Shown here: piece by piece, positions 885-22,007 of the stretch | How the letters are laid out: each line of letters starts with the position of its first letter | Numbering within the stretch: position 1 is the first letter of the stretch | IMG/VR virus record: IMGVR_UViG_3300035666_000136 | Coordinates: 1-26,849 of that record | Strand: one strand, 5' to 3' | Origin: a virus | Length of the DNA stretch: 26,849 nt | Position numbers and translations under genes: made by a program | Notes under the pieces: generated by a model | Seen by the model: the letters and a program-made list of their open reading frames with translations, nothing else | Told to the model about the DNA's origin: nothing | Databases searched by the model: none

Positions 885-1070
885 ATGAGCCCTGCATATA
901 AGTTTGCGATGCTCGCAGCATGGCTCGAAGGTTATGCAGAGGGCCTGCCGGATTACTGCACGGCAGAGAAGTTCAAGATTAAAGAGGCAGCAGAGTTGCT
1001 CATGGAAGTTTACGAGCAGCGGATGCAGGGCAACGATGGCTGGAAGCAGCATGCAGGGGATCGGGCGTGA
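885..1070 (+). CDS. Hypothetical small phage protein
   Basis: A 61-residue, mostly helical protein. I chose ATG 885, two bases after the preceding stop and 8 bases after GAGG at 873-876, over an in-frame GTG at 834 that would overlap the neighbouring gene by 49 bases. The body (FAMLAAWLEGYAEGL, then EAAELLMEVYEQRM) suggests two amphipathic helices. The stop is shared with the next gene through a GTGA overlap. No family recognised. Confidence 0.55.
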   Translation: MSPAYKFAMLAAWLEGYAEGLPDYCTAEKFKIKEAAELLMEVYEQRMQGNDGWKQHAGDRA

Positions 1071-1393
1071 ACAATGCCGAGATCCTTAAGCTAGCTCGGC
1101 GAACAGGCGTGTTGTTATCGGGGAGGGCAGAGCATGAGGAGGCGGTCAAACGCTTTAGCAAGCTCTTGCTCAACCAGCACAAGGCGCTGACGCCTGCGCA
1201 AAATCGATACCTACAAGCGCTTGATGATTGGATGTCGCTTGCAGACTTAGCCAAAAGTTTTAGTTGTACGCCGCAAAATGCGCTCAAGATGATGAGAGCG
1301 CTCGAAGCAAAAGGTCTAGTCGATAAGACGAAGCTATTTAAAAGGCTCACGGACCACGGGGCTTGGGCGTTTTACTACAGGAGAAAGTTATGA
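1067..1393 (+). CDS. Winged-helix DNA-binding protein (putative regulator)
   Basis: A 108-residue protein started by GTG at 1067, which overlaps the previous stop (GTGA); AGGGGA at 1055-1060 lies 6 bases upstream. Residues 1-15 (NNAEILKLARRTGVLL) match the xIxKLARxxG module that begins other short proteins here. From about residue 48 the pattern TPAQNRYLQAL..WMSLADLAKSFSCTPQNALKMMRALEAKGLVDK fits a MarR-like winged helix: a helix-turn-helix, a recognition helix and a conserved turn before a wing. I infer DNA binding; target and sign of regulation are unknown. It is coupled by ATGA to a second winged-helix-like gene. Confidence 0.65.
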   Translation: MNNAEILKLARRTGVLLSGRAEHEEAVKRFSKLLLNQHKALTPAQNRYLQALDDWMSLADLAKSFSCTPQNALKMMRALEAKGLVDKTKLFKRLTDHGAWAFYYRRKL

Positions 1394-4073: not shown

Positions 4074-4310
4074 ATGGACCTTAATGATCTAGAAAACCTC
4101 CCAGAGACGATCCTGGAGGCTTTTGGCTTTGAAAAAGACGTCCAGGTGCTCTACGTCACGCTTGCCGATGGGCAAAAAATGATCTTCCTGGGGCCCGCTA
4201 TGACAGCAGCAGACGTTGAGGGGGTGCGCGAGATCACTTTCGGTGAGCACGTCCATGCAGCAACCCTGCACTACACCAACAAAAGGCATAAGCAACTAGC
4301 GGTGCAGTAG
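4074..4310 (+). CDS. Hypothetical small phage protein
   Basis: A 78-residue protein with AGGAG at 4061-4065 eight bases before ATG 4074. The N-terminus is acidic (MDLNDLENLPETILEAFGFEKD). Two beta-strand-like segments follow (VQVLYVTLADGQKMIFLGPAM and THE..HAATLHY-like), and the tail is basic. I recognise no family. It sits between an intrinsic terminator and the repeat array, and its TAG stop directly abuts the first 10-bp repeat unit. Confidence 0.6.
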   Translation: MDLNDLENLPETILEAFGFEKDVQVLYVTLADGQKMIFLGPAMTAADVEGVREITFGEHVHAATLHYTNKRHKQLAVQ

Positions 4311-4370
4311 GCGCGCATAGGCAAGCATAGGCAAGCATAGGCAAGCATAGGCAAGCATAGGCAAGCATAG
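4311..4370 (+). repeat. 10-bp tandem repeat array (GCAAGCATAG)
   Basis: Six consecutive decamers: the first is degenerate (GCGCGCATAG) and the next five are identical GCAAGCATAG. The last also forms the beginning of the first 53-bp repeat unit. Every unit ends in TAG, and the array begins immediately after the TAG stop of the preceding gene, so it may have grown from that point by slippage. Confidence 0.9.
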
Positions 4371-4519
4371 GCAAAACATCCTCCGTAACCGGGTTACAGG
4401 GGAGATTTGGTAGGCAAGCATAGGCAAAACATCCTCCGTAACCGGGTTACAGGGGAGATTTGGTAGGCAAGCATAGGCAAAACATCCTCCGTAACCGGGT
4501 TACAGGGGAGATTTGGTAG
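4361..4519 (+). repeat. Three perfect 53-bp tandem repeats with internal palindrome
   Basis: Units 4361-4413, 4414-4466 and 4467-4519 are identical. Each starts with the decamer GCAAGCATAG and contains the 13-bp odd palindrome GTAACCGGGTTAC (at 4385-4397, 4438-4450 and 4491-4503). The palindrome is flanked by CTCC and GGAG, which can extend the hairpin across a small bulge. Perfect identity suggests recent amplification or active conversion. Repeated palindromes are compatible with protein-binding iterons, an origin or an RNA stability element; none can be shown. Confidence 0.9.
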
Positions 4520-4520
4520 G

Positions 4521-4577
4521 CCCGTGAGGCAAGGTCCAAGGATTAAGGTCCAAGGATCAAGGCTCACGGGTCTTTTT
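4521..4577 (+). terminator. Long-loop hairpin terminator
   Basis: CCCGTGAG at 4521-4528 pairs perfectly with CTCACGGG at 4563-4570, followed by TCTTTTTGTTT. The 34-nt loop carries two copies of a GGTCCAAGGAT-like sequence. The 8-bp GC-rich stem and T tract are typical of an intrinsic terminator, but the loop is unusually long, so it may also serve as a binding or processing site. It would end transcription of the early operon. Confidence 0.6.
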
Positions 4578-4634: not shown

Positions 4635-4762
4635 ATCGCTATAGGTTTTTGAGGCGGTGGGAGGGGATGGGCGGAGGTTAAAGGGTGATGAGCGGTAGAA
4701 AAGGGTCAAAAAAGGGTGTAATAAACGTATGTGTATAGAAGCGTGGTTTTGGGGTGAAGTTC

Positions 4763-4894
4763 ATGATAAAAAAGTATAGCAGTGGGGAGGGGGTGGGAGT
4801 TATTACATCCAGAGGCGTATTAGATGAACTTTCTGTGTTTGAAATTTTTTTTTTTCAAAACTTTGAAAGTATAGTAATAGACGTAATGCCGTAA
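4763..4894 (+). CDS. Possible 43-residue peptide (doubtful)
   Basis: ATG 4763 opens 43 codons ending at TAA 4892-4894. The product would begin MIKKYSSGEGVGVITSRG and then pass through the T11 tract as a Phe-rich segment (VFEIFFFQNFE). There is only a weak purine-rich sequence (GGGGTGAAG) upstream. The frame could be fortuitous in AT-rich DNA, although its length without a stop is mildly unusual there. Confidence 0.2.
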   Translation: MIKKYSSGEGVGVITSRGVLDELSVFEIFFFQNFESIVIDVMP

Positions 4895-4953
4895 GAAGTA
4901 CCGTAGTTATTGGGCTGCTATATGACAGTACTTTTTTCATTACGGTAATGGAG

Positions 4954-4983
4954 TTGCTATTTGTATGTATATAAACTTATAAT
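4954..4983 (+). promoter_or_regulatory. Candidate sigma70-like promoter
   Basis: A perfect -10 hexamer TATAAT at 4978-4983 lies 18 bases after TTGCTA at 4954-4959, which matches the -35 consensus in four of six positions. The palindrome CATTACGGTAATG ends 3 bases upstream of the -35 and could be an activator or operator site. It would drive the genes from 5249 onward with a leader of about 260 bases. Confidence 0.45.
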
Positions 4984-5045
4984 GCACTTATTACGTTAAA
5001 AGTTCATTATTACGTTGAATTACAGTGTTGTTTTTAAGGGACGAG

Positions 5046-5159
5046 ATGGATTTCCTTAATAGAATCAATGAGTTACAGAACATTACAGTGTATTACTATA
5101 CTTCTGAAAAAAAAAAAAAAAAAAAAAAAAAAACGCTAGAAGTTCACTTACTAATCTGA
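5046..5159 (+). CDS. Possible 37-residue peptide crossing the A27 tract
   Basis: ATG 5046 has a good ribosome site (AAGGGA at 5036-5041, 4 to 5 bases upstream). The frame reads MDFLNRINELQNITVYYYTSE, then eight Lys codons made by the A27 tract, then TLEVHLLI and a stop. Any change in A-tract length would shift the frame, and polyadenine codons are prone to ribosome and polymerase slippage. Whether this is expressed cannot be told; it may simply be leader sequence. Confidence 0.25.
   Translation: MDFLNRINELQNITVYYYTSEKKKKKKKKTLEVHLLI
5073..5102 (+). promoter_or_regulatory. Candidate sigma70-like promoter before the A27 tract
   Basis: TTACAG at 5073-5078 and TATACT at 5097-5102 are separated by 18 bases. 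Transcription would begin at about 5109, inside the A27 tract at 5107-5133, where initiation slippage could add extra A residues. The assignment is by hexamer similarity only. Confidence 0.3.
5107..5133 (+). repeat. Homopolymer tract A27
   Basis: Twenty-seven consecutive A residues. Tracts of this length are rare in phage genomes and are unstable in replication and sequencing. The exact length in the natural molecule is therefore uncertain, and an assembly or library artefact must be considered. Confidence 0.9.
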
Positions 5160-5248
5160 AATGGTGTCAACGTAATGGTTGGGAGTGAGCGGTAGTAGGG
5201 TGTGGATGAACGGTCGGTGTTATAGCTTTTGAAAAAGGAGGTTTTTTG

Positions 5249-5512
5249 GTGAGCAAAGCGAAAGATGAAGAGATCCGTTTGCCAGGGATCACGCCTCGGG
5301 ATTGGGGTGTTGTTTTCGGGCCTACGGGAAGGGCAAAGTATCCTTTTGCCAAGATGTTGATTGGCGATTACTTTGTTCTAAGATCGATGGGCGAGGCCAG
5401 TGCTGTTCGATCAGGGTTGCAGTCGTTTTATGCAAGGCATCCAGGAAGGCAGTTCTGGGTGCGCCAGAGCAGTTCTGCTGAAGGGGAATGGGTATGCAGA
5501 AGGATTCGGTGA
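5249..5512 (+). CDS. Small phage protein with YPFxxMxxGDYF motif
   Basis: An 87-residue protein. GTG 5249 is 7 bases after AAGGAGG (5235-5241), the strongest ribosome site in the window; a TTG at 5246 is too close. The body has KYPFAKMLIGDYFVL near residue 30, then VRSGLQSFYARHPGRQFWVRQ, then GEWVCRRI. This order resembles short phage proteins (DUF7303-like) in which a 'YPF..M.VGDSF.V' turn precedes a helix and two strands. Function unknown. It heads the packaging gene group and overlaps the small terminase gene by 19 bases. Confidence 0.6.
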   Translation: MSKAKDEEIRLPGITPRDWGVVFGPTGRAKYPFAKMLIGDYFVLRSMGEASAVRSGLQSFYARHPGRQFWVRQSSSAEGEWVCRRIR

Positions 5513-6312
5513 ATTCAGGGGATGGGAGCGGTTCTGAGGGGGTTTCTGGGGGTGTTGGCGTTGGTGCTTCGGTGTTCGACGTGAGCACGGGCGTAGTCAC
5601 GCCTAAAGTGCCGCTTCGGGATCAGAAGCCTCTGTTAGACCAGATCCCCTTGATGCGGCCTGAGGTTGTTGAAAAGCGTATTACTGCGCCATTGCCGAAG
5701 AAAGTGCGAAGGAAAGCGTTGACCAAGCAGGAGTGGACTTTTGTCAGGGAATACGTGACCGGAGACGGCGAAGTAACGCTCGCTGAGGCGGCAAGGCGAG
5801 CAGGGTATCGTGAGTCGAATCTCAAGTATTGGGGCAACCGGCTAACGGATCCGCACAAATCCCCGCACATTGTCCAGGCTATCCAGGAGTTGAGAACGGA
5901 GCTTGCCGTTAAGCATGGCACTTCGTTTGAACGGCATATGAAGGACATGCAACGGATCAGGGACATGGCCCTGGCTGCGGGTGCTTACTCGGCTGCGGTT
6001 GCGGCTGAATATCGCCGAGGACAGGCCCTGGGGACGATCTACGTCGAGCGTAAGGAAATCAGGGTTGGCACGATTGATTCGATGAGCAAAGAAGAGGTCA
6101 TGAAAAAGCTTGAGGAAATCAGCAAGCTTTATGGGGGCAGCAAGCCCGCTATTGTGTCCGACCAGGGTGAGGTGCTGGACGTAGAACCCGTTGCACCGTC
6201 GAAGCCTACCGTTTTGGAAAGGTTGAGCAATGCCGAGAAAATTAGAAAAGGACTTTTGGAAAAGGGTGCAGCCCCAGTTGAAAGGCCCTTGTTCCATAGC
6301 GATGAGGATTGA
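5494..6312 (+). CDS. terS: Terminase small subunit
   Basis: A 272-residue protein. ATG 5494 is chosen over ATG 5488 because AAGGGG at 5481-5486 gives 7 bases spacing. A Gly/Ser-rich N-terminus (about 8-25) leads to the core, LTKQEWTFVREYVTGDGEVTLAEAARRAGY (from residue 76), a helix-turn-helix DNA-recognition region common in small terminases. It continues with SPHIVQAIQELRTELAVKHG and a helical oligomerisation part, and ends in a long acidic-to-basic tail that may contact the large subunit. The role is to recognise phage DNA and regulate the packaging motor. The large subunit lies 2.1 kb downstream, separated by accessory genes. Confidence 0.8.
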   Translation: MQKDSVNSGDGSGSEGVSGGVGVGASVFDVSTGVVTPKVPLRDQKPLLDQIPLMRPEVVEKRITAPLPKKVRRKALTKQEWTFVREYVTGDGEVTLAEAARRAGYRESNLKYWGNRLTDPHKSPHIVQAIQELRTELAVKHGTSFERHMKDMQRIRDMALAAGAYSAAVAAEYRRGQALGTIYVERKEIRVGTIDSMSKEEVMKKLEEISKLYGGSKPAIVSDQGEVLDVEPVAPSKPTVLERLSNAEKIRKGLLEKGAAPVERPLFHSDED

Positions 6313-7870: not shown

Positions 7871-7892
7871 GCCGTCCGATTGCCCCAGCCTG

Positions 7893-7919
7893 AGCCCGGC
7901 CATTGAGCCGGGCTTTTTA
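7893..7919 (+). terminator. Intrinsic terminator
   Basis: AGCCCGGC at 7893-7900 pairs perfectly with GCCGGGCT at 7907-7914 around a CATTGA loop and is followed by five T. This is a strong terminator closing the Gp88-like unit. Confidence 0.85.
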
Positions 7920-8086
7920 TTGTATTTTACGCCCCAGCCCGAGCCCTTATTTATCGGCTCGATAGGACCGCGAGCCTTTATCGGTTTTTTCACTAAATCG
8001 AAACCTGCCCCGTGGTCCCCGCCCCGGGATCCGGTCCCCGTGAGCCCCGTTAGCCCGAGCCCCGTTAGCCCGCCCCGCTGGGGACC

Positions 8087-8114
8087 TGAGCCCTGAGCCC
8101 TGAGCCCTGAGCCC
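8087..8114 (+). repeat. 7-bp tandem repeat (TGAGCCC) x4
   Basis: Four exact consecutive copies of TGAGCCC. Near-copies occur on both sides (GTGAGCCCCGTTAGCCCGAGCCCCGTTAGCCCG at about 8040-8071 holds two GTTAGCCCG units). The pattern suggests slippage-driven growth. Confidence 0.85.
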
Positions 8115-8120
8115 TGCCCC

Positions 8121-8197
8121 GTGGACCGGTGGCCATGGGCCCCGATATCCCAGCCCCTAAGCCCGAGCCGTGGTCCGGTGGCCGTGGTCCGGTGGCC
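8121..8197 (+). repeat. 14-bp repeats (GTGGTCCGGTGGCC)
   Basis: Two exact adjacent copies occupy 8170-8183 and 8184-8197. A third copy with one substitution (GTGGACCGGTGGCC) is at 8121-8134. The core GGNCCGGTGGCC is partly palindromic. Confidence 0.85.
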
Positions 8198-8234
8198 TTG
8201 GGCCCCCGCCCCCGGGGCGAGTCCCGGTGCTAAA

Positions 8235-8266
8235 TTCTAGAATCGACTAGGTTCTAGGTTCTAGAA
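8235..8266. repeat. Paired TTCTAGAA palindromes
   Basis: TTCTAGAA occurs at 8235-8242 and 8259-8266, with the related TTCTAGG at 8252-8258 between them. Two identical 8-bp palindromes 24 bp apart (just over two helical turns) upstream of the large terminase could be an operator for a dimeric repressor. No regulator is assigned. Confidence 0.5.
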
Positions 8267-8358: not shown

Positions 8359-8440
8359 TACACTTTTCTCGTTTCCAGAAACCCACCCCCTTGTTCTTGA
8401 ACACGATTTCCCTGAAAATTTTTTGCAAATTTCAAAACCA

Positions 8441-10933
8441 ATGACCCTTCCCGCCGACGTTGAAGCCGAGAGGCTGCGCCTTGAGCTAAGGCTCAGGATC
8501 CTTGATGCTCAAGAAAAGAGCACTCAGTCATTCTTGGACTTTGCTCGTTATGTTTGGCCGGAGGCGATCTTCAGCGCCCACCATCAAAAAATGGCCAACG
8601 CTTTTGACCGCATCATCAATGGCGAGTTAAAGCGCTTGATCGTGAATATGCCTCCACGTCATGCTATAATGACCAGCATGAAGATCCCGACGACGCAAGG
8701 GTGGAAGACCATGGCCGAGCTCCAGGTCGGTGATTCGGTGTTCTCGGTCGATGGCTCGCCCGCCAAAGTTATTGGAAAATCAGAGGTATTCCGTGGCAGA
8801 ACGCTTTATCGTGTGACGTCCGACGATGGTGCATCGTTAGTTGTGGATGGCGAGCATCTGTGGACCGTGAGGCTTGATCGAAAGCACGGGATTTATCATG
8901 ACTACACCACGGAGGAGTTGTGGCGAAGGCAGCATGGTGAGGTCTTGAGAAAGACGCGTGGTGGTAAGACAGAGTTTTTGAAGGGTAAGCGAGCGATAGA
9001 CGTTCGACTTCCAAGACTGCCAGATGTGAAACCTGTTCAGTACGAGGAAAAAGACCTTTCGGTTGACCCGTATGTACTGGGTGTATGGCTTGGGGATGGT
9101 TCGAAAAACTCAGGGATTATTACGGCGGATGATAAGAATATGGTGTTTTTGCGCCAGGAGTTCGAGCGCCGTGGGACAAGAACCACGGATCAAGCGACAC
9201 GAAAAACCTTCGGCACGCTTGACCTTCAAGTAAAGCTTAAAGAGCTGGGTGTTCTTGGTAATAAGCATATCCCAGGGTCTTATATGCTCGGATCGGTGGC
9301 ACAGCGGCTTGATCTGTTGCGTGGGTTGATGGATACGGACGGGTGTGTGAGCAAAAAGGGACAGTGTTCGTTTGCTCAAAGCGATTGGCGCATGGCGCAG
9401 GATGTTGCGCAATTAATCCGAAGCCTTGGCACAAAGGCCTCGATCCTTGAGTCAGAGGCCAAGATTGGTGATAAGTCGTACGGCCCAACGTGGCGTGTGT
9501 CGTTTTACCACAGTGACTGTTGTTTGTTGCCTGAAAAGCGTGAGCGTCTTTTGACGGGCGAGCGTACCTTTGGTAGATACATTGCCGTAGAAAGGCTTCA
9601 TGAGACAGGCAGTACACAATGCATCAAGGTTGATCGAGAGGACGGGTTGTTTTTAGCGGGCGATGGGTATTTGTGTACGCACAACACAAAGAGTGAGTTC
9701 GCCTCCTACCTCTTGCCTGCCTTTGCCATGGGCCGTGAGCCAAGATCCAAGATCATTCAAGCCACGCACAATGGCGAGTTAGCGGTGCGCTTTGGCAGAA
9801 AGGTTCGTAACCTGATGGATCAGGACAACTACAAGGCTTTGTTCCCGGCGGTGAGTTTGAAGGCGGATTCAAAGGCTGCGGGTCGGTGGGACACCAATGG
9901 TGGTGGGGAGTATTACGCAGTGGGTGTCGGTGGTGCGATGACAGGGCGCGGTGCGGATCTTTTGATTATTGACGATCCGCATTCCGAACAGGACGCTTTG
10001 TCAGAGCTTGCCTTGGATAACGCTTGGGAGTGGTACACCTCGGGCCCTCGGTCACGGTTGCAGCCCGGAGGGGCGGTGGTGGTTGTGATGACGCGCTGGG
10101 GGATGAAGGATCTGACGGCACGGTTGATCAGGTCGCAAGCGGAGCCCAAGTCGGATCAGTGGGAAGTGATTGAGTTTCCGGCGATATTGAATGAGCATAC
10201 CGAGGACGAAAAGCCCCTTTGGCCAAGCTACTGGAGCCTTGATGAGTTACAGAAGGTCCGGGCGACGTTGTCGGTGCAGAAGTGGCAGTCGATGTATCAG
10301 CAGCAGCCCACCAATGATGAGGGGGCGATTTTAAAGCGTGACTGGTGGAGGATCTGGGAACATGACTACACCCCCGAAGTTGAATATGTTATCCAGAGTT
10401 ATGACACTGCATACAGCAAGAAGGAGACAGCTGACTTTTCAGCCATCACCACCTGGGGTGTATTCCGTCCCAGCTCGGACGACGGACCTGCCATTATTCT
10501 CCTCGATGTTAAAAAGGGGCGTTGGGACTTCCCGGAGCTAAAGCGTGTGGCAAGAGCCCAGTACGATTACTGGCGACCGGACAATGTATTGATTGAGGCC
10601 AAGGCCACGGGGACGAGTTTGCAGCAGGAGCTTCGGCGCGTGGGGATCCCTGTGACGACCTATTCGCCTGGGGGCAGGAAAAAGAACCAGGATAAGATTG
10701 CCCGCGCGAATGCTGTTGCACCCGTGTTTGAGTCGGGGATGGTCTGGGCACCGCAAACGAAGTGGGCAGAAGAGTTGATTGAGGAGTGCGCAGCTTTCCC
10801 CAAGGGCGATAATGATGACTTGGTCGATAGCACGGTGCAGGCCATCAGCCGGTTCAGGGCCGGGAACTTTGTGGCGTTGGACGATGATGAGGCCGATGAG
10901 CCATCAACGCAGCTTGAGTTTGAGTATTATTGA
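8441..10933 (+). CDS. terL: Terminase large subunit, intein-containing precursor
   Basis: An 830-residue precursor; removal of the intein at residues 75-415 leaves a 489-residue terminase of normal length. ATG 8441 lacks a clear ribosome site; TTG 8423 in frame is the alternative. The joined exteins read MPPRH/TKSEF, a Walker A variant. The Walker B motif is LLIIDDPH (Asp511-Asp512), and the coupling-like segment is VVVMTRWG. The C-terminal RNase H-like nuclease shows SYDTAY (Asp655), IEAKATG (Glu719) and NDDLVD (Asp792-Asp796 region). It is the packaging ATPase and headful/end-generating nuclease that acts at the portal with the small subunit. Activity depends on splicing, because the ATPase P-loop is interrupted. 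Confidence 0.92.
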   Translation: MTLPADVEAERLRLELRLRILDAQEKSTQSFLDFARYVWPEAIFSAHHQKMANAFDRIINGELKRLIVNMPPRHAIMTSMKIPTTQGWKTMAELQVGDSVFSVDGSPAKVIGKSEVFRGRTLYRVTSDDGASLVVDGEHLWTVRLDRKHGIYHDYTTEELWRRQHGEVLRKTRGGKTEFLKGKRAIDVRLPRLPDVKPVQYEEKDLSVDPYVLGVWLGDGSKNSGIITADDKNMVFLRQEFERRGTRTTDQATRKTFGTLDLQVKLKELGVLGNKHIPGSYMLGSVAQRLDLLRGLMDTDGCVSKKGQCSFAQSDWRMAQDVAQLIRSLGTKASILESEAKIGDKSYGPTWRVSFYHSDCCLLPEKRERLLTGERTFGRYIAVERLHETGSTQCIKVDREDGLFLAGDGYLCTHNTKSEFASYLLPAFAMGREPRSKIIQATHNGELAVRFGRKVRNLMDQDNYKALFPAVSLKADSKAAGRWDTNGGGEYYAVGVGGAMTGRGADLLIIDDPHSEQDALSELALDNAWEWYTSGPRSRLQPGGAVVVVMTRWGMKDLTARLIRSQAEPKSDQWEVIEFPAILNEHTEDEKPLWPSYWSLDELQKVRATLSVQKWQSMYQQQPTNDEGAILKRDWWRIWEHDYTPEVEYVIQSYDTAYSKKETADFSAITTWGVFRPSSDDGPAIILLDVKKGRWDFPELKRVARAQYDYWRPDNVLIEAKATGTSLQQELRRVGIPVTTYSPGGRKKNQDKIARANAVAPVFESGMVWAPQTKWAEELIEECAAFPKGDNDDLVDSTVQAISRFRAGNFVALDDDEADEPSTQLEFEYY
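8663..9685 (+). mobile_element. Class 3-like intein with LAGLIDADG homing endonuclease
   Basis: 341 residues in frame within the large terminase, from Ala75 to Asn415 of the precursor. The start AIMTSMKIPTTQGWKTMAEL followed by VGDSVFSVDG is a typical intein block A region but without a Cys/Ser/Thr nucleophile at position 1. Block B ends in GEHLW (His139, Trp141). The endonuclease has two LAGLIDADG motifs: VLGVWLGDG (Asp219) and LLRGLMDTDG (Asp300). Block F has CIKVDREDGLFLAGDG (Cys394), and block G is CTHN (Thr413, terminal Asn415) before Thr+1. The Trp, Cys and Thr match the WCT signature of class 3 inteins. All motifs look intact. Confidence 0.9.
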
Positions 10934-11003: not shown

Positions 11004-14000
11004 ATGAACGCTAGACAGATGATTGCCCGCTTTGCCGACGGTGGTCCAACCTTTAAGACTGAAGATCTTGTTGCTCAGGCCGTCAAGAATATTCAATCGG
11101 GTGCCTTTCAAGATCTTGAAGACATTAACCGTGCTGCGGAGCAGCTAAGAAAGGCAGGAAATGTCATCACCGATGAGCAGGTTCAGGCTGCTTACAGTGC
11201 AGGCAAGCGTGCGCAAGACGAGGCCATTGCAAGCTTTATTGCATCAACAACGTCCAACCCCATGGATCGCACAAATCCGCGAGGATCCTCGGCGGCAGAA
11301 GCATTGGACTTGATGAAGACCGCCTATCCTGGCATTACGCAAGGGGAAATTGCAGCCAGTGATCCATACAAAGCACTTTCGGCAGCGTCACAGTATGCGT
11401 TGTTTCATACGGGTTTGGGCGGTGAAGGCGCACCGGGAGCCATGGCAGGTGGCATTGGCGGCATGGACGTTAATATCAGGGCACGGCTTGAAGATGCTGC
11501 TAGACAGGCGCAAGCGGGCACGTTGACCAAGGCGCAAGTTGAGGATTTTATCAGCAGTAACATAGGCCAGGGAAAAGATTTCAGTGAGCAGGATCTCATA
11601 CGTGCCACAGGCAAGACCTCTGCACAGCTGCTTGCCGAGATGCAATTTAAGCAGCCGGTAGTCACAAAACCGCCGGTAGTCATACTGCCACCCACAAAAC
11701 CTTTGCCTGATCTGACCGAGGAGTTTGTTGCACCCACAGCCCCACCCCCTCAAGCACCTCCTGTTGCGCTAACCGCAGGACAAGAGGGCCTTGATCCAAG
11801 TACCGCGATCGTGGGAAAGATCCCCGAAAGCGAGCGCGTTAAGATCCCTCAGCTTGATACCGAGTTCAGAGCCTCTGAGCCAAGAACTGCGACCTATGAT
11901 CGCTTCGGGCGCATCACGGGCTATAACTACAGCCCTGCTGCCAAGCTGACCCCTGCCACAGGGACGAATGTATTTAACTGGACGCCTCCAGGCATCACGA
12001 GCCGCCCACGGTCGCTGCTTAATCTTGGCGATGTACCGGGGGTCATGGTCGATCCGGTCACAGGCCAGATGCGTTTGCCGTTATCCGCAAGCCAACAGTT
12101 TGCGCGGGATCGGTCAACGCTGGATAACCAGTTCAGGCAGCTTTACGCCCGGGCAGCAGCCGGGGATAAAAGCCTCCCGACCCAAGCACCCACAAGTGCA
12201 GCGGCGGCGTTTCGTAATTTTGTGATGAGCGGCGAAGATCCCATGTTGCAGAATAAGTTGCGCTTCAGGGACATTGAGCAGCAGAAGTACGATCCGACCA
12301 AAGCCGATCCCGCCTTGCGTGCCCAGTACGGGCAAAGTGCGTTTGTCTCGGATCTTGCAGCGGCGTTTGACCCCTTCCTTGCCCGCAACCGCGCAGCCCT
12401 TACTTCCCTGGCCGAGCAACAGACGCCTAAGAGTTACTCGGAGCAGTACCCGGATATTGCTGAGGCCTACGCCAAGCTCTCGGAGGCGGACAAAGCAAAG
12501 TTCCCTACGCTAAGGGACTACGAGCTTTACCACTTTGATACCTATGGCAGCAAGGAAGGGCGAACGTCGCCTCTTTTAGGAATGGGCGCGTTGCAAAGCC
12601 CGTATGCCACGGCGTTCTTCAGCAAAGGCGGTGAAGCCAGCACGGAGGACTTTATAAAAAAGCAGTCGGGCGGTGATGTTTCACGTGAAACAGCATCGCC
12701 CAATACGGCAGAAGTCCCCAAGCTTGATACTGAGGGCAGGTTGATTGATGAGCGTGAGGAGATCCGCTCGGAATCCCAGCGCATGTTGAATCGCTTGCAA
12801 AGTCAGCCAAGCAAACTGCCGCCGGGACTCAGGCGCACCATCGCTGCAACAAAAGAGCAAGGCAAGGAGTCGATGTTCCCTGCCGCTGCGCCTGCAAGGG
12901 ATCTTTTGTCCGGGATCCTTGGCGCAAGTCCCACGGCCCCCGGGTCTGAGGCGTATCGGACGGGGCAGGCCATTGCCAACATGCCGCCCGTACAGGCCGC
13001 TGCTGCCATACCGGCAAAGATTGCCGCTTCTGCGGGCGACGCTGCCACAGCACTTGCTGCCATGGGGCCAGCCGTGGGTGCAGTCATCAAGCCCAAGGGC
13101 GGGAATTGGATCAGGAACCAGCCTGGGAACTATTTGCGAACACTCAAAAACACGCCTGACGTAGATCAAGATATTGTCATGGCGCAAGAGCGATTGGCTG
13201 ATCTAGAAAACACGCCGTCGCCGTTTAATACAGAGCCCATGCGCCGCGAGCTAAAACAAGAGTTGGCGGGATACGAAACCGAGAAGTCCCTTAACAATTG
13301 GATTGATACCAAGCTCGGCAAGTACGTCAAAAATGAGATGGGTACGCCTGAAGACCCATTGAGAAAGCTTGCTGAACGGGGTGTTTTACATATCGATCCC
13401 GCACACGACTGGGACACGTACCTTTTAACGTACAGACGTCGAGACGAGGGATTTCCTGAAAAAGGCATTGCTCAAGGTGAACTGGCCAAACGCTGGGAAA
13501 ACATAGTCGATTACGACATCGAAATAGAAAAACAAAAGCACTTTGTAAAAAATGCGGATGAATTTAATTTTCCCAGTGCGCGAAGGTTTATAGCGGGCAA
13601 CCCGTGGGTTAAAAATTTAGACCCAGAGACCTCGCTGTATTCTATATTACCCCTTGCAGGTGAGGACAGATTAGGTTTTGTACACCTAATCGATGAGTTA
13701 CGAAACGCTAGTAACCCTCAATCAGGCTTACCACAAAATCTCCAGGTAGACCCCAGGAAGCTCGATAGGATCTCCGTGCCTCAAGCGGTCGAGCTCGTTG
13801 ACAAGATCAACAAGTGGCGCGTGGAGAATGTTAAGAACCTCCAGCTTGAAGAGACGCTCAAGGCTGATCTCTACAAGGCTTACCCAGAGCAAAATTATCG
13901 TTGGGTGCAACTCAATAGGCCCGGGCAGTTTGCAGCCGAGTCCGATGCCATGGGTCACTCGGTCCGTGGTTATGAGCCCCCGGACAAGGGAGGCAGTGAC

Positions 14001-14795
14001 TACTACGGGCTTGGTGGCTTTAAAGCCATTGAGTCAGGAGAGGCCAAGGTTTACTCCCTTCGCGATGAGAAGGGTCAGCCGCATGTGACGATTGAGGTAG
14101 GACAAGGTAGCAGACTTCCTAGGCACCAGGAGATTCTTGACGAGATGGAACGCTCTGGATTGAATCCGCGTTCAATGGGTCAGGATGAATACAACACGGC
14201 CTATCGTGAGGCACAGAGAACTTTAGAGGATCGTCAACCTTTGCGAATCACACAAATCAAAGGCAAGGGCAACGCAATGCCTGCTGAGAAATACATGCCT
14301 TTTATTCAAGATTTTGTAAAAAGTGGCAATTGGACTGAAGTTAACGACCTACAAAACACTGGATTGATTCGATTAGGAAACGAGTACCTAACGTCCAAAG
14401 AAATCAAACCATTGGTTGAGCAATCCATGCGATACCTTGAGCAATCGCCTGCGCTTGAGCCTCACCGCCAAGCAAGACGAGCTCTTAACGATTACTGGAA
14501 CACAAGTAGCTCAGTTCATTCATCAAGATACAGAGAACTTGAGAACCAAGCAGGTATGCAAGTACACCCTGACATACCCTACACCTACGGTGAAATGCTC
14601 AGTATTTTTCAAGATCCTGGTTCTTATGATCCAAGTTCGCTCAGGGAGAATCTTGAGCGTGTTAATCGCTTGCGCCAACTTTACGGTGAGGAAGGCTTCA
14701 AAAAAGGCGGCCCCGTCGATGTTCCACGTGAAACATCGACTTCCAAGCAACAACTCGATAAACTCGCGCAGGTAAGTCAGCGCAAAAAGGCCTAG
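11004..14795 (+). CDS. Large protein of unknown function carrying two parS-like sites
   Basis: A 1263-residue protein between terminase and portal. ATG 11004 follows AGGGGA. Visible parts: an N-terminal helical region; a Pro-rich linker (about 219-255, with KPPVVILPP and APPPQAPP); an Ala-rich, weakly hydrophobic segment (about 652-697); a charged region with WIDTKLGKYVKNEMGTPEDP; and YSLRDEKGQPHVTIEV (1017-1032) followed by QIKGKGN (1084-1090), a pairing I have seen in large phage 'polyvalent' proteins. Short GG motifs (ADGGP, SKGGE, KKGGP) recur. It may be an injected or internal virion protein, which is inference. Its gene contains two exact parS consensus sequences. Base composition becomes more AT-rich after about 13.3 kb, suggesting a composite origin. 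Confidence 0.75.
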   Translation: MNARQMIARFADGGPTFKTEDLVAQAVKNIQSGAFQDLEDINRAAEQLRKAGNVITDEQVQAAYSAGKRAQDEAIASFIASTTSNPMDRTNPRGSSAAEALDLMKTAYPGITQGEIAASDPYKALSAASQYALFHTGLGGEGAPGAMAGGIGGMDVNIRARLEDAARQAQAGTLTKAQVEDFISSNIGQGKDFSEQDLIRATGKTSAQLLAEMQFKQPVVTKPPVVILPPTKPLPDLTEEFVAPTAPPPQAPPVALTAGQEGLDPSTAIVGKIPESERVKIPQLDTEFRASEPRTATYDRFGRITGYNYSPAAKLTPATGTNVFNWTPPGITSRPRSLLNLGDVPGVMVDPVTGQMRLPLSASQQFARDRSTLDNQFRQLYARAAAGDKSLPTQAPTSAAAAFRNFVMSGEDPMLQNKLRFRDIEQQKYDPTKADPALRAQYGQSAFVSDLAAAFDPFLARNRAALTSLAEQQTPKSYSEQYPDIAEAYAKLSEADKAKFPTLRDYELYHFDTYGSKEGRTSPLLGMGALQSPYATAFFSKGGEASTEDFIKKQSGGDVSRETASPNTAEVPKLDTEGRLIDEREEIRSESQRMLNRLQSQPSKLPPGLRRTIAATKEQGKESMFPAAAPARDLLSGILGASPTAPGSEAYRTGQAIANMPPVQAAAAIPAKIAASAGDAATALAAMGPAVGAVIKPKGGNWIRNQPGNYLRTLKNTPDVDQDIVMAQERLADLENTPSPFNTEPMRRELKQELAGYETEKSLNNWIDTKLGKYVKNEMGTPEDPLRKLAERGVLHIDPAHDWDTYLLTYRRRDEGFPEKGIAQGELAKRWENIVDYDIEIEKQKHFVKNADEFNFPSARRFIAGNPWVKNLDPETSLYSILPLAGEDRLGFVHLIDELRNASNPQSGLPQNLQVDPRKLDRISVPQAVELVDKINKWRVENVKNLQLEETLKADLYKAYPEQNYRWVQLNRPGQFAAESDAMGHSVRGYEPPDKGGSDYYGLGGFKAIESGEAKVYSLRDEKGQPHVTIEVGQGSRLPRHQEILDEMERSGLNPRSMGQDEYNTAYREAQRTLEDRQPLRITQIKGKGNAMPAEKYMPFIQDFVKSGNWTEVNDLQNTGLIRLGNEYLTSKEIKPLVEQSMRYLEQSPALEPHRQARRALNDYWNTSSSVHSSRYRELENQAGMQVHPDIPYTYGEMLSIFQDPGSYDPSSLRENLERVNRLRQLYGEEGFKKGGPVDVPRETSTSKQQLDKLAQVSQRKKA
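12677..12692. other. parS-like site 1 (canonical ParB-binding palindrome)
   Basis: TGTTTCACGTGAAACA is a perfect 16-bp palindrome and is identical to the chromosomal parS consensus described for Bacillus subtilis and conserved across many bacteria. It is read in frame within the large protein gene as part of D558-V-S-R-E-T563. No parA or parB gene is visible in the window, so a host ParB is the likely partner if the site is used. Confidence 0.85.
14715..14740. other. parS-like site 2 inside a 26-bp palindrome
   Basis: The core TGTTCCACGTGAAACA at 14720-14735 fits the degenerate parS consensus TGTTNCACGTGAAACA. Symmetry continues for five more bases on each side (GTCGA and TCGAC), giving a 26-bp palindrome with a single mismatched pair. 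It is read as D1239-V-P-R-E-T1244, 19 codons before the end of the gene, and lies 2,043 bp from site 1. Confidence 0.85.
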
Positions 14796-21416: not shown

Positions 21417-22007
21417 ATGCCATACGCCAATGAGCTTACAGGGGTATACAAAGTAGCTAACAAAGTCACCGGACATTGTTATGTCGGGCAATCAACCCGC
21501 GTCAAAAAACGTGTCCATGAACATTTTCGATTGCTTCGAAAAAACATACACCCAAATCCAAATCTTCAGGCATCTTTCAACGAATGCGGAGAACAGGCTT
21601 TTTATTGGTCATTAGAGGTCACATGCGAAGACCCACAAGATCTAGATCAATTAGAGGAAACCTTTCTTCAAGGCCATGCATGGTTTGATGAAAAGAAGCT
21701 TTTCAATATCTCAGACTTTGCTAAGTCTCCGATGAAGAGTCGGCAGCACTCGCCTGAAGTGAGAGAACGAATCAAACGTGGAAGGCAAGCCGCTAACTTT
21801 AACTATGCCTCAAACAGTTATCGAAAGAAGCTACAGGACGCTAGGCTCAAACAGTGGCTTTCTAAGCCTGAGTTTGTTGCTAAAGTTCAATTTATAGTTG
21901 ACAATCCAAGCATGTCTTATGCGGAGCGCGGGCGTGTTTTGGGGATGGATACATCATCTGTCCGTAAACTTGCGCTTCGCTACAGTCCCTTGAAAGGAAC
22001 ATTCTAA
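21417..22007 (+). CDS. GIY-YIG homing endonuclease, free-standing
   Basis: A 196-residue protein; AAGGAG at 21405-21410 is 6 bases before ATG 21417. The catalytic domain starts with GVYKVANKVTGHCYVGQS (Gly9-Val-Tyr11 and Tyr22-Val-Gly24), then TRVKKRVHEHF with the conserved Arg/His helix, and LQASFNECGEQAFYWSLEV with a glutamate. Downstream are HSPEVRERIKRGRQ, like a NUMOD3 DNA-binding element, and a C-terminal helix-turn-helix (SYAERGRVLGMDTSSVRKLAL). Such genes spread by cutting alleles that lack them. It sits between the capsid terminator and structural genes, and its stop overlaps the next ATG by one base. Confidence 0.85.
   Translation: MPYANELTGVYKVANKVTGHCYVGQSTRVKKRVHEHFRLLRKNIHPNPNLQASFNECGEQAFYWSLEVTCEDPQDLDQLEETFLQGHAWFDEKKLFNISDFAKSPMKSRQHSPEVRERIKRGRQAANFNYASNSYRKKLQDARLKQWLSKPEFVAKVQFIVDNPSMSYAERGRVLGMDTSSVRKLALRYSPLKGTF

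Follow-up and report, generated by a model that had tools for sequence, protein, structure and literature searches.

A tandem array of hairpin-bearing repeats in a viral contig most likely reflects a lineage-specific expansion of an older hairpin at the end of an operon

The locus studied here raises the question of whether an array of perfect tandem repeats between two phage gene modules is an origin or a binding-site array, or an ordinary repeat expansion. The window, i.e., the whole stretch of DNA analyzed, is a 26.8-kb (26,849 nucleotides) IMG/VR virus record with genes for TerS, TerL, portal, and major head proteins in that order; with an insertion left out, its large terminase and that of Phage DSL-LC04 share 76% identity. 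As a preliminary description had placed it, the array separates a series of small early-type ORFs from the packaging/head genes. By direct reading, six decamers (five perfect copies of TAGGCAAGCA and one variant) stand in front of three identical 53-bp units (4358-4516), and Tandem Repeats Finder confirmed both the decamer array (period 10, 6.0 copies, 100% matches, 4315-4374, score 120) and the 53-bp array (period 53, 3.1 copies, 100% matches, 4358-4521, score 328), with scores far above chance. Each 53-bp unit contains the perfect 13-bp palindrome GTAACCGGGTTAC once, at 4385, 4438, and 4491. The array opens with a TAG that is also the stop codon (4308-4310) of a 78-aa ORF, a point absent from the preliminary description; after the decamers, the spacing from TAGGC to TAGGC is 43+10+43+10+43 bases up to 4516, and the TAGGC that follows opens the stem of a terminator. 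The 10-bp repeat is nested within the 53-bp repeat, and the fifth perfect decamer forms the first 10 bp of unit 1, which bears out the common origin proposed earlier for the two arrays. A coding array was rejected because neither period (10 or 53) is divisible by three and TAG stops come with each unit; a host-derived repeat or REP/MITE was rejected after a pattern scan of GTDB genomes gave no hits.

Table 1. Features at and around the repeat array (window coordinates)
Feature	Coordinates	Strand	Remarks
78-aa ORF	4074..4310	+	Last of the small ORFs upstream; 12 IMG/VR contigs have homologues (59-97% aa identity)
Variant decamer TAGGCGCGCA	4308-4317	+	Sequence split at each TAGGC
Five perfect decamers TAGGCAAGCA	4318-4367	+	Tandem Repeats Finder and direct reading; fifth is part of 53-bp unit 1
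53-bp unit 1	4358-4410	+	Imperfect hairpin 4379-4403 (TCCTCCGTAAC-CGG-GTTACAGGGGA)
53-bp unit 2	4411-4463	+	Hairpin 4432-4456
53-bp unit 3	4464-4516	+	Hairpin 4485-4509
Intrinsic terminator of upstream operon	4518..4577	+	Long stem AGGCCCGTGAG...CTCACGGGTCT, then T tract
Conserved non-coding core, outside array	4640..5200 (560 bp)	+	Between terminator and late genes
Terminase small subunit (terS)	5488..6312	+	Near start of downstream packaging/head operon; phrog_51, E = 1.4e-10

The 78-aa ORF matched neither Pfam nor PHROG families. Downstream of the array, a stable hairpin followed by a U tract, as expected of an intrinsic terminator, has a folding energy of -34.1 kcal/mol (z = -5.7), with the T tract reaching 4577, and both stem and T tract are retained in relatives. 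The terS ORF also matches Terminase_2 (E = 3e-4, below the Pfam cut-off). The non-coding region had no match among the named phage records of INPHARED, and portal homologues in bacterial genomes identified no host. Elsewhere in the window, the TerL ORF (8423-10933) has an insertion with LAGLIDADG homing-endonuclease domains that is absent from the TerL of DSL-LC04 and is likely an intein, a GIY-YIG endonuclease ORF (21417-22007) lies directly 3' of the major head protein gene, and a G+C-rich, non-coding stretch ahead of terL (7880-8260) is dense in short tandem repeats (GAGCCCCGTTAGCCC, CCTGAGC, and GCCGTGGTCCGGTG).

We compared the locus among the 12 IMG/VR contigs with the 78-aa gene, in 11 of which the downstream sequence is readable. 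The window has three units, L085/L097 and L086/L093 have two, L094, L095, L096, and L007 have one, and L012, L087, L088, L089, and L090 have none while keeping the terminator; pattern and protein searches of the viral collection found only these carriers. Gene order is unchanged in sister phages with two, one, or no copies. Thus, near-identical copies stand head to tail and their number is unequal among close relatives at one locus (3, 2, 1, 0), as in a VNTR. The three perfect 53-mers leave a 111-bp internal repeat, and a short-read assembler needs a longer word to count the copies, so that the exact count of three may be mis-assembled. The duplication itself is real because two other contigs hold two units with mutually different sequences: in L086/L093 as well as in L085/L097, the first bases differ between the copies.

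In a tree built on the adjacent non-coding core and rooted with L020/L021, the window and the two-copy contigs group together (bootstrap 100, branches under 0.003, <1% divergence), the one-copy contigs fall outside this group, and the zero-copy group is sister to all carriers. The copy series along the tree is therefore 0/1, 1, 2, and 3, with the step from two to three within <1% divergence. This topology suggests the gain of one hairpin (or its loss in the L012 group), then a doubling in the common ancestor that the window shares with L085/L086, and finally the addition of a third unit and of the decamer stutter in the window lineage. Judging from the tree, a single copy is the older state among carriers. 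The recent expansion or homogenization suggested by the preliminary description agrees with these data, as the closest relatives have <1% flanking divergence, yet contain two units with one decamer per unit. Moreover, a CAGAGGAG to CAGGGGAG substitution is present in all three copies of the window and in no relative, and a GCGCGCA variant is in the first decamer of the window but at the start of the second unit in L085/L086; together, the shared change and the shifted variant point to homogenization or unequal exchange. TAGGC borders the unit on both sides in the two- and three-copy forms, and the extra copies look like the result of recent slippage or unequal recombination between these microhomologies. 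Copy number itself is probably neutral.

Across carriers, the constant part of the array is one 25-nt hairpin (consensus TCCTCYGTAAC / GTTACAGRGGA) located between the stop codon and the intrinsic terminator of the operon. The spacer 5' of the hairpin is not conserved, whereas the hairpin is. In the aligned carriers, which form a small sample of six distinct hairpin sequences, the hairpin has 11 pairs, and 94% of cells are paired versus 36-50% with the partner strand slid. One G-C pair is C-G in L007, i.e., changed on both sides, another pair is U-A in two lineages and C-A elsewhere, and a third becomes U-G in the window. In a shuffle control, 80/500 shuffles reached the observed level, with the signal coming from the one double change, and the covariation is therefore suggestive only. 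Loop and arms retain sequence beyond the needs of pure structure. The unit hairpin of the window alone is of unremarkable strength (z = -1.2), while that of L094 is longer, with a 15-pair stem containing one C-A mismatch (-19.6 kcal/mol, z = -4.3).

On the plus strand, the hairpin of the 53-bp unit is followed by AUUUGG and gave no hit in terminator prediction, which marks the unit on the minus strand only; lacking a U tract on the plus strand, the unit alone is not a canonical intrinsic terminator. Rfam gave no match above the gathering score in the window, and the palindrome GTAACCGGGTTAC is absent from DSL-LC04. At the corresponding place in the more distant L020/L021, we read by eye two hairpins with T tracts (CGCTTTTT and GGGGCTTTTTT), so that the operon may originally have ended in a double hairpin. 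Hairpin and terminator are separable elements, as in L094 they are parted by a small gene (362-872) to which neither Pfam nor PHROG assigned a family. This gene has a near-consensus sigma-70-like promoter, as read by eye, and two parS-like sites.

Based on these observations, we propose, at a probability of roughly 60%, that tandem expansion within one lineage created the array in the 3' UTR of the gene that closes the early/small-gene operon, that the older, conserved element is a single RNA hairpin between the stop codon and the operon terminator, and that this hairpin has an accessory role at the 3' end of the transcript. The comparison itself shows where the hairpin lies, that a clade conserves it, how the copy number varies, and that the last step was recent, whereas function and mechanism we infer from sequence. 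The hairpin may act as an accessory 3'-end element, namely, the first, U-poor hairpin of a tandem-terminator arrangement, which may slow the polymerase or shield the 3' end from exonucleases. The TAGGC on either side of the unit would permit duplication by slippage or unequal recombination, and the TAGGCAAGCA stutter would be produced by the same route. Extra copies would be tolerated because the array is flanked by a stop codon upstream and by a separate strong terminator downstream. We found nothing useful in the literature on repeat-bearing tandem terminators in phages. We consider it highly improbable that readthrough from the early operon towards the late genes is tuned by an adjustable count of hairpin units; if so, repeat slippage would make the timing of packaging or lysis vary heritably.

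The hairpin and repeats might instead be functionless and spread by slippage, as the L012 group has no hairpin, its terminator suffices there, and copy number and spacer are variable. We regard this as unlikely, given that the window and L007 share ~87% identity in the hairpin but 69% in the 78-aa gene, and given the paired double change. A protein-bound DNA dyad would likewise yield symmetrical changes, and the 13-bp palindrome could be an operator for a phage regulator, with tandem copies raising local occupancy at the early/late boundary. Its perfect form in each unit and the keeping of sequence as well as pairing are in line with this idea, and a small HTH/MarR-like protein is encoded upstream (window 1067-1393; match below the Pfam cut-off). 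However, no promoter is predicted over the palindrome or the rest of the unit, two sister contigs of 50 and 55 kb have no further copy of it within one mismatch, and a covariance model of the unit, searched against 647 kb of related sequence, found no match above noise outside this locus. Also, three lineages manage with one copy and a fourth with none, and the palindrome is altered to CTAACCGGGTTAG in L007. An operator is thus doubtful in our view, somewhat more so than functionless repeats.

The reading as iterons or tandem protein-binding hairpins, put forward in the preliminary description, was not supported: the array is missing in close relatives whose organization is unaffected, which is the outcome that the description itself had set against its reading, and the unit lies in a 3' UTR without a promoter. 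The direct repeats do adjoin non-coding DNA that is A+T-rich and contains long A and T tracts, but an iteron origin consists of multiple conserved direct repeats for initiator binding, and here most relatives have one or no copy. Neither the window nor the 55-kb sister contig has a GC-skew switch, at this site or elsewhere, and the polymerase and primase genes are ~7-13 kb distant; a replication origin made of these repeats is barely credible. Equally hard to credit is a packaging (pac/cos) signal ~1 kb upstream of terS, since the array is absent in relatives with TerS 82-85% identical and the conserved non-coding core makes the stronger candidate.

Judged by its conservation, this core outranks the array as a candidate functional element and could be a late promoter, origin, or packaging site. 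Its nucleotide identity to L012, which has no array, is 85% (78-aa gene, 76%; terS, 84%) and to L020 73% (78-aa gene, 66%; terS, 76%). The motifs ATTACGT (4; expected 0.16) and AAGTTCA (4; expected 0.12) are over-represented, with these counts reached in 0/1000 shuffles in a post hoc test of motifs picked before testing. T11 and A27 tracts are also found in the core, as is an imperfect inverted repeat (4818-4855/5116-5153).

Separately, we observed matches to the bacterial chromosomal parS (TGTTTCACGTGAAACA, 0-2 mismatches) at 12677-12692 and 14720-14735 of the window, within the ORF after terL. Similar sites lie at 13996, 15034, and 15715 in L117 and at 362, 399, 10881, and 11919 in L094, as well as upstream of terS matches in a more distant group (L067, L071, L072, L077, and L080-L083). 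By our own estimate with uniform bases, the chance of a site with 0-1 mismatch in 27 kb is ~3e-4. Because ParB_N had no match in six long records, a host ParB might read these sites; a literature search on parS in phages without ParB returned nothing useful.

The locus serves mainly as a caution, since a conspicuous array of perfect repeats where one operon ends has proved to be a very recent expansion. Comparison with sister contigs separates what is old (one hairpin, the terminator, and the 560-bp core) from what is probably noise (copy number), and it provides a case from an environmental phage in which the growth of nested repeats from 5-bp microhomologies can be dated. Among known systems, the array resembles minisatellites/VNTRs in its perfect tandem units, copy number varying among close relatives, border microhomology, and homogenized copies, but differs in that its unit bears a conserved hairpin and that a 10-bp repeat nests in the 53-bp repeat. 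It shares with tandem intrinsic terminators the order of last ORF, hairpin, and strong terminator, and L020/L021 have two T-tailed hairpins here, whereas its unit hairpin has no U tract and occurs up to three times. With the iterons of plasmids and phages it has in common direct repeats adjoining A+T-rich DNA, but the repeats are spaced at 53 bp, their multiplicity is unconserved down to zero, and they are not accompanied by a skew switch.
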